Assembly: GCF_963855985.1 (NCBI RefSeq) | Contig: NC_087111.1 | Location: 1,431,001-1,495,000, forward strand | DNA: 64,000 nt | Origin: Ostrinia nubilalis | Taxonomy: Eukaryota > Arthropoda > Insecta > Lepidoptera > Crambidae | Reading direction: 5' to 3' | In this document: piece after piece, positions 2,936-28,072 of the stretch | How positions within the stretch are numbered: the first letter of the stretch is position 1 | Layout: every line of letters begins with the position of its first letter | Notes under the pieces: model-generated | Databases searched by the model: none | The model's input: only the letters and a program-made list of their open reading frames with translations | What the model was told of the DNA's origin: nothing | Position numbers and translations under genes: made by a program

Positions 2936-3148
2936 AACCTTAGTGAGTTGAAAGTGCTAAGAATATTGTTCATATGAACCTACTTTAGATTGTTGCACAA
3001 CTATGGCAACGCTTTATCAAACTATTTATGAAAATTCTAGAGCAAACTTAACCGACACTTAATGAGTTTAGAGATGCGGGATCTGAAGAATTTGTATTAA
3101 AGTTAGTGACTACGGAAGATAATAATATGATTTTAGATAATGAGAAAT

Positions 3149-3320
3149 AGCCACGGTAACCGAACGATGAAGGGGTCGGACTGGCCGACTCGTGATCCGG
3201 GGAACGCGTTCGAACGCGGGTTCGATCCCCGCCGCCGCTCGACTATTGTGGTGAGCTCACTCGTGACACAAGCATAATATTTAGCTTAGTAGGTACGAGA
3301 GGCTAACGAGACTTAAAAAG
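3149..3320 (+). mobile_element. tRNA-derived SINE (family S3)
   Basis: A tRNA-like head carries a B-box (GGTTCGATCCC, near 3219) and is followed by 'actattgtggtgagctcac' and 'acacaagcat..atttagctta'. The same head-plus-body order occurs at 42650-42811, which shows a dispersed SINE family. The head is not a plausible working tRNA because the acceptor stem is not formed. Confidence 0.65.
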
Positions 3321-3504
3321 AAAACTTCGCCGTGGTCGAGTGACAAGAGAAATGGACTCCTTATGTTTCTGAAATCTGACATAGAGATTGTGACATCGTT
3401 GTTACAGTCATTTTTTTGTATTTATTTATTTTGCACAAAATAACTAAAAGTCCCGTTAGTCCTCGTGTGGAAAGACCCATGCTTGTGTTACGAGTAGGTT
3501 CATC

Positions 3505-3560
3505 ACAATAGTCCAGTGGTTGGGTTATAACCAGCGTTCTTCGGATCTTGAGTCGGCCAG
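3505..3560 (+). repeat. tRNA-like SINE fragment
   Basis: 'aatagtccagtggttg' resembles a Pol III A-box and is followed by 'agcgttcttcg'. A similar order (aatagtccaatggttg...gcgttcttcgaacctgg) occurs at 5827-5888. This is probably the remnant of one old SINE family; support is weak. Confidence 0.35.
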
Positions 3561-4295
3561 TTCACTGTTCGGCTTCAAACTTTCCTCCATGACAAACTTG
3601 ACCTTCACCGGTTGGATTTTTATTGGCAGTCATGCTGTAAACACTGGCAACACAGGAGTTGCAGTAGTGGGAACAAGAGGTGGAAATAGTCCAATTATTG
3701 TCGCTTCGAAATCGATGAAATAAATTGACTTACGATAGAAGTAACAGACTTTGATAAATTGATAAATCTTCAAGCGCGAGTAATAATCTGTACACCAAGC
3801 ATAGTCAACAACAACTTATCACAGCACAAATCCGAGCCTTTTGTTATCACATTAATTAATTCCCCTTTATCTTAACTTAACTAAAACCAGCAGCGTAGAG
3901 CTTCCATCAGTTTAGGTTGATTTCTGCGATCCATTGTGATTGTAAATTGTAGTAGTGATTGTTATTTAGTATTACAGACAGACATACAGAATTTAATAAT
4001 CAAGATAAATTATATTCAATCTTGATCAGTCCTCAGTATATACTAACTAACTAATTAATATTATGTATGGAATAACCCTCCTCTTAATTAAAACATATCT
4101 TGGGGTTTTGGCGTGAAATTAAATTATTTTTATATACCTATCACTGATGAGCTTTTTATGTAAAAAAAGCGTAGCGGAAGAAAATAATAACATATAAAAA
4201 ATAAAAAATTATAATAACATATCTAGAGACAGATAGAAAACAATGCATTGGCTATGATTTTTCTTTTCTGAAATAATGATTGTCATTATCTTATT

Positions 4296-15020: not shown

Positions 15021-15400
15021 ACGGTTTGTAAGCACTATCTAAATAGTCTATAGAAATACCTACTACCATTTTTTACTTTTTTTAATGACTATGATGATAA
15101 TTTAAGTCTTGTTTTGTTAATAATAGGCTTTATCTATGATTCCTCAAAAACATTTTGGAATACAGTCGCTCTCTCTTCTATCAAATACAGCGTTTAGGGG
15201 CGAGAGAGAGACAGGTAGAGCTAAATTAACGTACATTGCAACGCATTACTGCAACAATCACATCAATTACCTAGAACTGCAAACTAAGCAGAGCTTGACT
15301 ATAGCAACTAGGTTACAGATAAACATACCTACTCGTACTTAATCTATAGATAGTACATAATATAAACCCACAATATCAACCCTCCGGACTTACGCATTAC

Positions 15401-15645
15401 CAGAGTAAATACAAATGAGTAGGTCATCTTCATAGAAACGCACCGAGCTCGGTTTGTATGTGAGCGCGCCAATATACGTATGCGGCGCGCACGCACACAC
15501 TGACAAAATTCGGCGCACTTCACCGCTAATCACCGCTAAATTTTGTCAGTGTGTGCGTGCGCGCCGCATACGTGTTGGCGCGCTCGCATACAAACCGCGC
15601 CCGTGCGTTCCTATGAAGATGACCTACTCATTTTTATTTACTCTG
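15401..15645. mobile_element. Foldback MITE (CAGAGTAAATAC termini), complete copy
   Basis: The inverted ends are CAGAGTAAATAC / TATTTACTCTG, and the arms match over about 100 bases each (e.g. 'gtatgcggcgcgcacgcac' against its complement). Direct 7-bp duplications GCATTAC lie at 15394-15400 and 15646-15652. It is the best intact reference for the split copy at 23265-27664. Confidence 0.85.
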
Positions 15646-15701
15646 GCATTACTTACATTTTTACCCCAACTGAACTCGAATTCGCTACCGCATCTGGCGT
15701 T

Positions 15702-20073: not shown

Positions 20074-20443
20074 TATACAAGACAAACAATCTTAGAACCG
20101 CAAATCGTTTACAAAGCTAAAATAATTGTTCATTTTGTTAGAGGACTTGATTCCGTACAAAATGGGTAGTTATGTCGTCAGTGTATTGTAGTTTTGTAGT
20201 ATTTATTCTGTGATATTGTTAAAAACAATGATGCGATAAGGCCTGCTGTAAACTAGGACATCAGATAGATTTTAGGATGCATGCATGCTTTAGTAAAGCG
20301 ACGTAAAATAGAGCAGAATACGTTTTGTAGAGTTTAGAAGTAATGACATTTTTTACCAAGGTATGTTACCAGTGATGACATAAATGGTTCGGAAACGTGG
20401 CGTCTCACTAAATAGGCCTTGTACATAAGCTTAAAGTTGCACA

Positions 20444-20747
20444 GTGTGCCATGGAAAAGGCTATGCTCGGTGTTTCTTTACGAGATCGAATCAGAAATGA
20501 AGAGATCCGTAAACGAACTAAAGTCGCTGACATAGCCCGACGGATTAGCAAGCTGAAGTGGCAATGGGCAGGGCACATAGTACGCAGAGCTGAAGGCCGA
20601 TGAGGCAGGAAGGTTTTGGAATGGAGTTGATGATGACTTCAGATGATGTCATAAAGGTTACAAGATGCATGTCGCAGCCAACCGGCCAATCCAGAAATCC
20701 TTAAGAGACCTTTGTTATGCAGTGTCCAGTCCTGTGGCTAAAATGAT
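20444..20747 (+). mobile_element. RTE-clade LINE fragment, rearranged
   Basis: Plus-strand code for AMLGVSLRDRIRNEEIRKRT, VADIARRISKLKWQWAGHIV and RRAEGR*GRKVLEW (internal stop), then a short deletion and a degenerate remainder with 'aagagacctttgttatgcag' and 'ggctaaaatgatgac' at the end. Not functional. Confidence 0.75.
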
Positions 20748-20811
20748 GACATTGACATGGATATAATAGGTTTATTTAATTTTTAGCGTTAAGAGTTGCA
20801 TCTCAAAGGTA

Positions 20812-22612: not shown

Positions 22613-22657
22613 ATTATAATTTCTAATGAACATACGCGGTCCGAAGTTCACCAGGTT

Positions 22658-22846
22658 CGTTCGTTCGTTCGTTTCAGCCGAAAGACGTCCACTGCTGGAC
22701 AAAGGCCTCCCCCAAGGATTTCCACAAAGACCGGTCCTGCGCCGCTCGCATCCAGGTACCTCCCGCGACCTTCACCAGATCGTCGGTCCACCTAGTGGGA
22801 GGCCTGCCCACGCTACGTCTTCCAGCTCGTGGTCGCCACTTCGTCG
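22658..22846 (-). mobile_element. RTE-clade LINE, 3' fragment with 10-bp TSD
   Basis: A (CGTT)n tail leads into the minus-strand C-terminal RTE code, 5'-truncated near 22846. Direct 10-bp repeats TCACCAGGTT at 22648-22657 and 22847-22856 mark the insertion. No frame disruption is visible in this short piece, so it may be fairly recent. Confidence 0.85.
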
Positions 22847-22893
22847 TCACCAGGTTAGGTAGTAAATAAATAAATAGTTAATTCTAATTCTAC

Positions 22894-23181
22894 GCGCAGA
22901 CCACCGACTTTTAGTTGGCCGATTCTAATTTGAATGAAGAATCGGCTGATACCAAATCGGTGTAATGTGCGCACTTTCATACATCTCCATACTGATTAAC
23001 AGCCCGACCCAACTATCGGCCAACTAAAAGTCGGTGGTCTGCGACTTTTAGTTGGCCGATTCTAATTTGAATGAAGAATCGGCTGATACCAAATCGGTGT
23101 AATGTGCGCACTTTCATACATCTCCATACTGATTAACAGCCCGACCCAACTATCGGCCAACTAAAAGTCGGTGGTCTGCGC
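22894..23181. mobile_element. MITE family M3, tandem dimer
   Basis: A 137-bp unit (22906-23042) is repeated immediately (23043-23179); I see no difference between the two units. The outer ends GCGCAGACCACCGACTTTTA / TAAAAGTCGGTGGTCTGCGC are inverted, and a partial inverted end is shared at the junction. Single copies are at 40785 and 41225. Confidence 0.8.
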
Positions 23182-23327
23182 TTAGGCTAAAACGAGATAA
23201 GACAAAAGGATGTCGACAGCCCCAAACTTGCTTTATCAAGACGTTGAAATGGGTTTAGTTTACGCAGAGTAAATACAAATGAGTAGGTCATCATCATAGA
23301 AACACACCGAGCGCGGTTTGTATGAGA

Positions 23328-23390
23328 GAATAAGAAAAACTTTATTTGACACAAAAATAAAACAAAAAACAGAACAAAGGGACTTAAAAC
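23328..23390 (-). mobile_element. Retroposon 3' end
   Basis: Minus strand: '..gtgtcaaataaagtttttct' with an AATAAA signal near the end of the insert, an arrangement typical of retroposed 3' ends. It lies exactly at the left breakpoint of the split MITE. Source unknown. Confidence 0.4.
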
Positions 23391-24892
23391 TATACTGCCG
23401 TCCGATCACTATAACGCCGTTAAGTGCAAAAACCACTTTCGGAGAAAAACGAGTTTAAAGATCACGAATTAAAAAAAAATCGCTGTTTCAAAAGTAAAAG
23501 AGTAATTTGTAATTTAAATATATCATTTTAAAGGTATTTTTAAGAGCTACAATTGACACAAACTCTCACGACGCTACATATTATAGATTTTGAAATATTT
23601 TAATTTATACATTTTAACTCAGTATTATTGAAATAATATCTCAAAATATACACAACTAAAACGCCGGTATGGCTACCTTAACGGCGTTTAAGTTTTGGAT
23701 CTTGAATAACTTTGATACATTTGTAAAATGAGTTTCTAACTAATAATTCTACTAAACTTTAATGCCGTTAAATAGTTTAACGGCGTTTTAGCTCGGTAAA
23801 ACTATTATTTTTTAACGTGAAAATACTTGCCTTAAATGCAGCTAATGTTAGCTAACGTCATTAAAGTCTAGTATTAACACATAAATTCCGAAACTATTGG
23901 TATGCCTGTTTGATTCGTTTTGATTACAAGACTAAAATGCAGTTAAAAACAAAACTTTTCACCATAACGGCATTTAAGCTAAGTACTAGCTACTTAATAG
24001 TTCAGGAAATAAAGAAAATTGCATTTATGTCAAAAATAACAAAACCTGTTTTAGTGTTGAAAATTTATATTGATTTTAAAAAAATCAAGTCTTTACTATT
24101 TTTAGCATTCGTTGACATCAATAATACGTTTTATTATGTTAATTTTTTAAATTTACCACTTTAAAAAAGTAGATACTCATAAAAGACAACACAAAATAAA
24201 ATCTTTACATTTTCATTATTTGAGATCAATTAAAACCAACTATTGAAAGTTCTCAAACTTAGCAGTTTCATAATAATAAAAATAATAAGTGACGACACTT
24301 TATTACCAATGCCGCAATATATTTATATTATTTTGCCTGTTTACTGAAACAGGTTACAACTACAATATTTTGTAGTTAATAAAAATTGATATCTATTTAT
24401 TTAATTCAATAATAATGTACAACGCGGCAAGCCTTACCTAATAAATTAACTTCACGCTGCTTATAATAATCACCTAGTTAGTGAGAATGGTGAGAATCAT
24501 GTTTATCAAATGGAAATAAACTACAATTCTTAAGTAAAATAGTATCAAATTAAGTCGACATATAAGTGGTTCACGGTAATATTCTCAATATAACTACACC
24601 TTTACTAAATTTAATTTTTTCTTCGTGAAATGTTGTTTTAATGACAGGAATGTCTTTTTACACGTAATTACATAATGTTACTGTCCATTTGTTCGTTTTT
24701 TGACATTAAGGGCATATTTTACAATCGCTTAGTAAGGGCCTGTTTCACGACTTTTGAATAAGTTGTGGATAGCCTATGTGACGGATCATTTGACACATTT
24801 TTATAGAAAATACGTGCTAGCTAGATAGACCCGACACTTGCCGAATATATCCCGTATATTAGTCTGTACGAGATTAGAATGGTTCTCAAATA

Positions 24893-25744
24893 GCTAAAAT
24901 CAACAAGGCACCTGGTGATGATGTAATCACAGCTGAGCTTCTGAAAGCAGGCGGAACGCCGGTACAAGGCTTTTCAGAAGCTGTTTGATTCCGTCATCCT
25001 CAAGGGAAAAACGCCTACGGCATTGCAAAGAAGTATGGTGGTACTCCTCTTCAAAAAAGGTTTGTATAAAAACGTCATAATGTCAGTCCGTCTCCAGGAT
25101 TAGGTCTCGAAACCTATCTAGTTGCAGCGAGGGGTGAGACAGGGAGACGTAATATCTCCGAAACTGTTTACCACCGCCCTGGAAGATGTTTTCAAGCTTC
25201 TGGGCTGGAGAGGATTCAGCATAAATATCAACGGCGAGTTCATCACCCACCTTCGATTTGCAGACGATATCGTAGTGTCTCAAGACGAAAGTCTTCGAGC
25301 AGTGTGTGTTGCCAGTGTTGACATATGGATCCGAAACGTGGTCGCTTACTATGGGCCTCATAAGAAGGCTCAAGGTCACCCAAAGGGCGATGGAGCGGGC
25401 TATGCTCGGAGTTTCCCTGCGTGATCGAATCAGAAATGAGGAGATCCGTAGGAGAACCAAAGTAACCGACATAGCTCGCAGAATTGCTAAAATCAAGTGG
25501 CAGTGGGCGGGGTACATAGCTCGTAGAGACGATGGCCGTTGGGGCAGGAAAGTTCTCGAGTGGCGACCACGGGCTGGAAAACGTAGCGTGGGCAGGCCTC
25601 CTACTAGGTGGACCGACGATCTGGTAAGGGTCGCGGGAAGAGCCTGGATGCGGGCAGCGCAGGACCGTTCATTGTGGAAAACCTTGGGGGAGGCCTTTGT
25701 CCAGCAGTGGACGTCATTTGGCTGAAACGAACGAACGAACGAAT
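24893..25744 (+). pseudogene. RTE reverse transcriptase, internally deleted copy 1
   Basis: Three collinear coding pieces remain: KINKAPGDDVITAELLKAGG (24905 on), RGVRQGDVISPKLF...LRFADDIVV (25130-25278, carrying the conserved RQGD region and the FADD catalytic motif), and the C-terminal domain VLTYGSETWSLTMG...RPPTRWTDDLV...VQQWTSFG (25306-25724), followed by a (GAAC)n tail. RTE proteins copy their RNA at a nicked target. Here the endonuclease and much of the palm domain are missing, so it is dead. The second deletion joins two GTAGTG strings (see findings). No target duplication could be found. Confidence 0.85.
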
Positions 25745-26484
25745 CGTAGTTGTGGCAGATCTAGGCACAATGCTCGATGGCCTCAGTAGAGCCTCGCAAC
25801 AAGTGGGTCTCAAAATGAACATGGACAAGACAAAAATCATGTCAAATGTCCGTGTTGTACCCACTCCTCTGAAAGTTGGAGACTACACTCGAAGTTGTTG
25901 ACAGTTATGTATGTATACCTGAGACAAACCATCCAGTTAGGTCGGTCCAACTTTGAGAGAGACGTCGATTGTCGAATCCAGGTCGGCTGGGCAGCGTTCG
26001 GGAAGCTTCGCGATATTTTCACGTCCGAAATACCGTAGTGTCTTAAGACAAAAGTCTGTGACCAGTGTGTGTTGCCAGTGATAGTATACGGATTTGAGAT
26101 GTGGTCGCTTACTATGGGCCTCATAAAAAGGCTCAAGGTCACCCAAAGGGCGATGGAGCGTGCTATGCCAAGCATAGTTTCCCTGCGTGCTCGAATCAGA
26201 AATGAGGAGATCCGTAGAAAAACCAAGGTGACCGACATAACCCCCAGAATTGCTAAAATCAAGTGGCAGAGCTGAATATGGCCGATGGGGTAGAAAAATT
26301 CTCGAGTGGCGACCACGAGCCGAGACGTAGTGAGGGCAGGCAGGCCCCTTACTAGATGGATGGACTATCTGGTAAAGGTCATAAGAGGTGCCTGGATGCG
26401 GGCGGCGCAGGACCGATCGTTGTGGAAATCCTTGAGACCTTTGTCCAGCCGTTGAACGACATTTGCCTGAAACAAACGAACGTT
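25744..26484 (+). pseudogene. RTE reverse transcriptase, 5'-truncated copy 2
   Basis: It begins directly after the tail of copy 1 with IVVVADLGTMLDGLSRASQQ and continues VGLKMNMDKTKIM, then a VDSYVYL block, NFERDVDCRIQVGW, AFGKLRDIF, a C-terminal YGFEMWSLTMG domain and a degenerate end with 'acgacatttgcctgaaacaa'. Stops and frame slips (e.g. near 26270-26340) are present. It supplies exactly the segment after FADD that copy 1 lacks. The C-terminal domains of the two copies differ at many positions, so they are not a recent duplication. Confidence 0.85.
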
Positions 26485-28072
26485 ATGTCTTCGTCTAACA
26501 TAGAAGATGTAAAACAAAATGAACAAGTAAAATGATCGAACACCAGGCTTCTTTTACTAATTTTTAAAATTAGAAAACAAAACGCAACGTGTTCTTATCA
26601 TTTAAAACTCAGAGGCACACTGATGCTCAATTACCGCGCTGCCGTGTCTTAAAGTTGCAGTGCGAATTAGCCACGAAAATAGTGACAAGACAACAATATC
26701 TCACTAACACGTTTCATACCTTGTTTATAACGACTAGTCTTAGATAATAAAACATAGAAACATTGCACATCACATATTAATAAACAACAAACATAAAATT
26801 AAAACTAAATTTATTTTGTTGAGAACGCTAGGAATATTTCCGGGAGCGTTATCAGCGGCACATCAGTAACTCTGACTGAGCTGAGTGATCGACGCACGCA
26901 ACGACGCTTAGAACACTTCATTCAACTTTTTGAACATAGCCGCATTATAGTTTAGGAATGTAGGTTAACGGCATTTAAGTCTTGTAAAAATGTAAAAAAC
27001 ACATAGATTGTTACATTTGGTTAGCCTTAATGGTGAATTTACTAGTGCAATTTTAATAAATAAATTCATGTAATACAAAGCTATAATGCCGTTATTGGAC
27101 CTTTGTTGCGTTTAAGTCTAATAATTTTACTTAACGGCGTTTTAGTCTTGAGGAGTCTATTAAAGCTTTGCAAAGAGCAGCTTAGCAATATTGTCGTTAA
27201 AGTACCTTAACGGCTGTATTGACTAGAAATTGTAAATAACGGCAATAAAGCTTTGTAATTTTTCTTAAATTTTTAATTCTAATAACAATTAAAGACGCTT
27301 AACCGCGTTTAAGCTAAGAAATGTAATGTAACTGCATTTTAGTTATGTAATCTTGCAGAAGCGAAGCAGTTATCGGCTTTCTTATTTTTTTTATCTCAGG
27401 AACTAAACAAGATATAAAAATTTCGATAACAGTGCTAGATTAAGCATTTTTTTCTGATTCGGATGGTATTCAAAAGTCAAAATTGACCAATTGTGGGTTA
27501 ACGGCATTATAGTGATTGGACGGCAGTATACACGCACCTCACCGCTAATCCACGCTAAATTTTGTCAGTGTTTGCGTGCGCGCCGCATACGTATTGGCGC
27601 GCTCACATACAAACCGCGCTCGGGCGTTTCTATGAAGATGACCTACTCATTTGTATTTACTCTGGTTTAGGTATTTAGTAGGTATTTACACAGCCTGGCA
27701 AATGATAAGGCTCAGTCATGGGCGGTTAGATATTAGATATTAATATTGAGTTTCAGAATTTCTAGATCGCAGATATTAATCATGCTTGGGTAGTGAAATC
27801 CAGTCTAGACTATTTAAAGTAGGTGATTAGTAAGTTGTGCTTCGTAATGGTAAAACTTGCCTTAATCAGGGGTTATTAGAACTGACATATTGTTTGAAGT
27901 ATCATGTTGGACCTAATACATAAAATCTTAAAAAGCATTTATCACGATGATGTTAGTGTTTATTTACTTGATAGTTACGTTCGCAAAAGCTACAGAGAAA
28001 AAAAATCTGGAACGTGAAATCTTAGTTCTGTATGTTTCATGCCCTTCCCGTTTGGCCATCAAATATACAAGG

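Follow-up and report, generated by a model that had tools for sequence, protein, structure and literature searches.

A window of 64,000 bases from Ostrinia nubilalis (contig NC_087111.1, positions 1,431,001 to 1,495,000; the window is the whole stretch analysed) carries at positions 23395-27526 an element that is probably a non-autonomous DNA transposon of the cut-and-paste type. It belongs to a set of about 40 recent copies, probably moved by the DUF7869 transposase of a relative, a truncated remnant of which would be preserved at the locus L031 on contig 31. The copies share their ends, diverge little and are bordered by 4-bp duplications; a filled site has an empty counterpart, and arrays of a short motif are nearly confined to the family. 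The right arm of the element is also found at L031, a locus adjoining a protein with a predicted DDE/D fold. These observations support the preliminary description of this DNA, which had proposed a non-autonomous DNA transposon with subterminal arrays resembling transposase sites; no transposase is encoded in the copies read (23 of the 38 paired copies in full and one in part).

TATA stands on either side of the element, at 23391-23394 and 27527-27530. The ends read CTGCCGTCC, with CTGCC as the outermost bases, and the bases preceding CTGCC differ among copies. The inverted ends described previously are indeed found and are 94% complementary. The span 23393..27528 given for them has been corrected to 23395-27526, and the supposed TA flanks and terminal sequence TACTGCC give way to a 4-bp duplication of variable sequence and an end at CTGCC. 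Because TATA is found on both sides, the earlier 'TA...TACTGCC' corresponds to the duplication plus the end. The exact 20-bp end had 0 matches in viral contigs in one scan. The features of the element and its surroundings are as follows.

23391..23394, no strand: left target-site duplication, TATA (36 of 38 paired copies are bordered by an exact 4-bp duplication)
23395..23423, plus strand: left terminal inverted repeat, CTGCCGTCCGATCACTATAACGCCGTTAA (inverted-repeat comparison, 94% complementary; genome-wide end-pattern search)
23408..23979, no strand: left subterminal array, with sites at 23408-, 23655-, 23678+, 23756-, 23777+, 23830- (weak), 23852+, 23931- and 23964+
24393..24458, plus strand: block sharing homology (about 82%) with the 5′ region of L031; it is co-linear with the right arm
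24889..26482, plus strand: captured, dead reverse-transcriptase fragment of a long interspersed nuclear element (LINE) (RVT_1, E 1.2e-6, 28.8 bits, cut-off 29.6; outer limits set by eye)
26936..27513, no strand: right subterminal array, with sites at 26936+ (weak), 26965+, 27080-, 27131+, 27185- (weak), 27207+ (weak), 27236+, 27299+, 27328+ and 27498+
27498..27526, minus strand: right terminal inverted repeat, CTGCCGTCCAATCACTATAATGCCGTTAA on the minus strand (inverted-repeat comparison; genome-wide end-pattern search)
27527..27530, no strand: right target-site duplication, TATA (same evidence as the left)
23307..27623, no strand: host palindromic repeat resembling a miniature inverted-repeat transposable element (MITE) and carrying the element as an insertion (arms 23307-23328 and 27602-27623)

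A 101-base query was found at 40 places in the genome (495 Mb, 52 contigs), and the 29-bp end pattern, with up to 3 mismatches allowed, gave 79 matches, with none for the reversed control. These matches comprise 40 left and 39 right ends and form 38 pairs, so that the search for further copies with the same ends, which the preliminary description had suggested, found them in number. The paired copies span 3,274 to 18,055 bp, and the longer ones among those read carry nested insertions; the copy on contig 25 was read for 8.9 of its 11.1 kb, and for 14 others, including the 7.6-kb copy at C11:15464030, the reading covered just the ends. An exact 4-bp duplication borders 36 of the 38 pairs: 34 of the 36 pairs scored by script, and the two scored by eye (L029 and L032/L033). 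The 34 scripted sites include 26 different sequences; C precedes the duplication in 23 of them, G follows it in 20, and its two middle bases are A, in 20, and then T, in 20. Raw site counts, taken without genomic background, thus show a palindromic C-NATN-G target preference. The empty counterpart of the insertion site of L025 is seen in L027, where 254 of 256 bases are identical and CAGG occurs once. Twenty-one copies (the window copy and 20 of the other 37 paired ones) differ by 0.47-1.22% from their majority consensus of 3,660 bp, gaps and larger nested insertions being omitted, and by this measure the family is one that spread recently. An unpaired left end at C7:3244002 matches over 174 bp at 88.5%, its interior is unrelated and shows no transposase match, and it appears to be an older relative. 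A third unpaired end lies at C6:17572965.

The array motif is the 16-bp TTAACGGCRTTWWAGY, with sites scored as matches out of 16. All 15 sites in the window with at least 14 of 16 matches fall within the element; when the element was shuffled 60 times under a first-order Markov model, such sites numbered 0.17 on average and at most 1. At the looser threshold of 12 of 16, the element holds 27 of the 88 window sites, and shuffles average 5.1. The earlier suggestion to compare motif density with shuffled sequence by means of a weight matrix also led to clear enrichment: of the window sites that score at least 12 bits, all 17 are within the element (500 shuffles: mean 0.15, maximum 2), as are 19 of the 24 that score at least 8 bits (mean 0.74, maximum 5). 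The matrix was trained on the element's own sites, and only the outside and shuffle counts are independent. Genome-wide, the exact motif has 236 matches, compared with 4 for a reversed-pattern control. This number is close to six motifs in each of forty copies, and the motif therefore appears nearly private to the family, although the figure of six is arithmetic on the genome-wide count.

The consensus contains 20 matches to TTAACGGCRTTWWAGY of at least 13 of 16, two of which overlap a better site on the opposite strand, leaving 18 places; the weight matrix places 17 sites there at 12 bits or more. The sites occupy consensus positions 14-585 and 3070-3647, with none in the middle, and the inner portion of either terminal repeat is itself one motif site. 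In the left array, the last eight of the nine sites are arranged as four minus/plus pairs whose starts are 23, 21, 22 and 33 bp apart, and the inverted arrangement at some 22 bp suggests a dimeric binder. Spacings in the right array are 29-170 bp, and seven of its nine sites share one orientation. The previously listed motif positions were borne out at 23408, 23655/23678, 23756/23777, 23964, 26965, 27080, 27131, 27207 (weak, 12/16), 27299 and 27498, and clear sites at 23852, 23931, 27236 and 27328 can be added to them. That the element is just an ordinary dispersed repeat or segmental duplication, with motifs clustered by chance, is scarcely credible; its repetitive nature would fit, and nothing more, since precise common ends, duplications, an unfilled site and motif enrichment all stand against it.

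Between the arms, the LINE fragment, which we take to be RTE-like, is found in all 21 aligned copies and is partly deleted in some. The window copy alone (1 of 21) has an additional block of about 470 bp, at 25267-25737, which matches 26030-26482 at about 80% identity. Fragments resembling the core LINE by eye also lie at about 20360-20760 and 22640-22850 of the window, and the flank of L025 matches the LINE as well. The insertions within long copies were considered as possible sources of transposase, and those in L010, L011, L014, L016, L018, L019 and L021, like those in L023-L025, L027, L029 and L032-L034, proved to be LTR-element (long terminal repeat), Tc1-like, BEL-like, LINE or unidentified sequence; these types were named by eye from reading frames and repeats. 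None of 24 DUF7869-protein matches in the genome (59 candidates scored) lies inside any of the 38 paired copies, as judged by eye, and among the loci then examined, L031 alone was matched by three DUF7869 proteins in tblastn.

L031 (C31:3277888) is the only one of the 39 right ends without a left partner. It has consensus positions 3004-3660 in common with the element at 98.3% identity, with a sharp break at 3004, and further in, co-linear with this arm, lies the 66-bp block at about 82%, which occurs only in element copies and L031 among 30 sequences (the window and L009-L037). Reading inward, L031 shows a 362-aa frame (299 aa from the ATG at 1803) and then a 535-aa frame, which matches DUF7869 (E 7.7e-6, 26.1 bits, cut-off 26); at E ≤ 0.001, its homologues number 630. 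The best of these, P0001, is 68% identical over 79% of the frame, and P0007 of Cydia amplana is 54% identical over 96%; homologues occur in Cydia, Brenthis and Spodoptera and are mostly 500-880 aa long. The first exon, read through (L031:1803-2699), gives a 299-aa product whose tail weakly resembles the zinc-binding Tc5-C domain (E 0.005, 17.6 bits, cut-off 27.4); no homologue of this product was found at E ≤ 0.01 among 402 candidates. An NCBIfam scan gave one sub-threshold match. Among the best 40 of 4,451 candidates for other copies of the L031 5′ region, nearly all represent a repeat inserted at its positions 606-815. Neither the missing C-terminal part nor the left end of L031 was found in the next 13.6 kb.

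In the genome, 29 places match the DUF7869 profile; 14 control genomes have none. The L031 gene is the only close copy found in its own genome: the next, at C31:4828311-4829803, is decayed (48-72%), and the rest are 23-35% identical. Since this sole close copy is truncated as assembled, the family may have lost its means of movement, unless other individuals or sequence missing from the assembly still carry an intact copy. The ends of the DUF7869 loci L036 and L037 were not recognisable. Two further DUF7869 matches, at C1:8700179-8700607 and C31:6554837-6555265, have identical scores and 573-aa frames and are perhaps recent copies of another transposon family, and four frames within 8 kb at C12:13076848-13084850 match the DUF7869 protein in its N-terminal part alone and are perhaps a tandem host gene family.

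The L031 protein, though encoded in a copy truncated on one side, has a predicted DDE/D fold with conserved acidic residues. D148, D228 and D272 of the modelled core are conserved, and D272 would be the third catalytic residue. By Foldseek, the nearest solved fold to the catalytic core is Mos1. In Pfam, the candidate transposase matches DUF7869, with all other matches below threshold and none to mariner, and the four homologues scanned match DUF7869 only. A profile search scored 7,986 candidates; most entries are nameless, and those with a name are proteins of insects, fish and molluscs described as hypothetical or uncharacterised. Where sources name DUF7869 proteins, they give them as uncharacterised proteins of insects, fish, Hydra and a mollusc. 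The string DUF7869 was not found in the literature searched.

On this basis, a mechanism can be proposed in which the DUF7869 transposase, supplied in trans from a relative of L031, would bind the arrays of 16-bp sites that lie within 600 bp of either end. The bound transposase would pair the two element ends, which is the role we ascribe to the arrays, cut at CTGCC by means of its DDE/D active site, and join the ends to cuts staggered by 4 bp, for which C-NATN-G would be the preferred site; the copies would thus owe their movement to this protein. The non-autonomous form could have originated by deletion of the transposase gene from an ancestral element and gain of the LINE fragment between the arms.

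Several observations weigh against this proposal. E279 is as well conserved as D272, the Foldseek alignments between the core and Mos1 have low TM-scores (0.2-0.3) and a large root-mean-square deviation, and the whole 812-aa model finds nothing at E ≤ 0.001. The alignment of the L031 protein with P0001, P0003 and P0007 stops short of their ends by 110-124 residues, the searches yielded no complete autonomous copy, and L031 lacks any left end in the 18 kb read. L036, a close relative that retains its C terminus, shows no matching ends, and two pairs, L018 (TCTG/ACTG) and the contig 25 copy (GCGG/AGCG), lack an exact duplication. The expectation of a longer relative with the same ends and a DDE/D transposase is accordingly borne out in part: a partner locus with the predicted fold exists, but with the right end only and an incomplete gene.

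In principle, the 98% arm could stem from a non-autonomous copy that was truncated and happens to adjoin an unrelated DUF7869 gene, and the same element would then have been mobilised by another transposase, with L031 as a chance junction. The single end, the incomplete gene and the sharp break at 3004 would fit such a junction, and with 28 other DUF7869 matches scattered in the genome, chance proximity is conceivable. This explanation is nevertheless disfavoured because the 66-bp block is co-linear and is otherwise found only in element copies; moreover, the gene that follows the sole unpaired right end has a predicted DDE/D fold. We therefore consider it unlikely and prefer mobilisation by the DUF7869 protein. 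A broader conjecture, itself rather doubtful, is that DUF7869 proteins form a superfamily of transposases not yet described, one that has palindromic 4-bp targets (C-NATN-G), dense arrays of inverted site pairs and possibly a second product of the same gene, from exon 1 into the Tc5-C-like tail, that binds the arrays as TnpA does in CACTA elements.

The MITE-like host repeat has relatives in the window at 15397-15646 and about 2001-2220. The former is uninterrupted, and the centre of its alignment is too diverged to give the exact insertion point. Adjoining the host repeat on the left, at 22905-23178, a 137-bp unit with inverted-repeat ends forms a perfect direct repeat (two copies, 100% identical).

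These data provide a concrete young multi-copy transposon with defined ends, a target preference and candidate binding sites, and tie it to a protein domain of unknown function that is widespread in animals. If the link is true, annotation could treat DUF7869 as a DDE/D transposase domain, and many insect genes now labelled 'uncharacterised' would become transposon genes.

With terminal inverted repeats and a duplication of fixed length, 4 bp in 36 of 38 pairs, the element is probably a cut-and-paste transposon of the inverted-repeat type, in a family without match to a described one. The earlier proposal of an undescribed family is plausible at the family level, although 4-bp duplications also fit the known Sola superfamily, which was reportedly described, with its groups Sola1, Sola2 and Sola3, by Bao and colleagues in 2009. 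Sola transposases have a DDD triad, which may be compared with the conserved D148, D228 and D272, E279 being equally conserved. Sola2 shares the 4-bp duplication, and a Sola2 transposase of 888 aa is mentioned (PMC3627910). The DUF7869 homologues are mostly 500-880 aa long, a likeness drawn from descriptions.

Tc1/mariner elements are resembled through Mos1 as the nearest fold of the core, but the TA duplication is absent, with 26 different 4-bp sequences among 34, and there is no mariner match. The TTAA duplication of piggyBac and Kolobok occurs in 1 of 34 sites only. Ginger ends begin TGT and CACTA (CMC) elements have CACTA or CACTG termini, whereas this element begins with CTGCC after variable flanking bases; hAT duplications are 8 bp long. 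Academ, with a 3-bp duplication according to the iMITEdb paper (PMC5199201), differs from the 4 bp observed here. According to PMC2613891, plant CACTA elements carry subterminal motif arrays bound by an element-encoded protein, and their deletion derivatives are moved in trans; the element likewise has short-motif arrays in its outer few hundred bases, and differs in termini, duplication length and transposase family. A CACTA or mariner-type origin, in spite of these arrays and the Mos1 fold, is thus very improbable. Repeated sites near the ends are also shared with hAT elements such as Hermes, where many transposase copies contact them (PMC10368747). The 4-bp duplications and the transposase family set the element apart.
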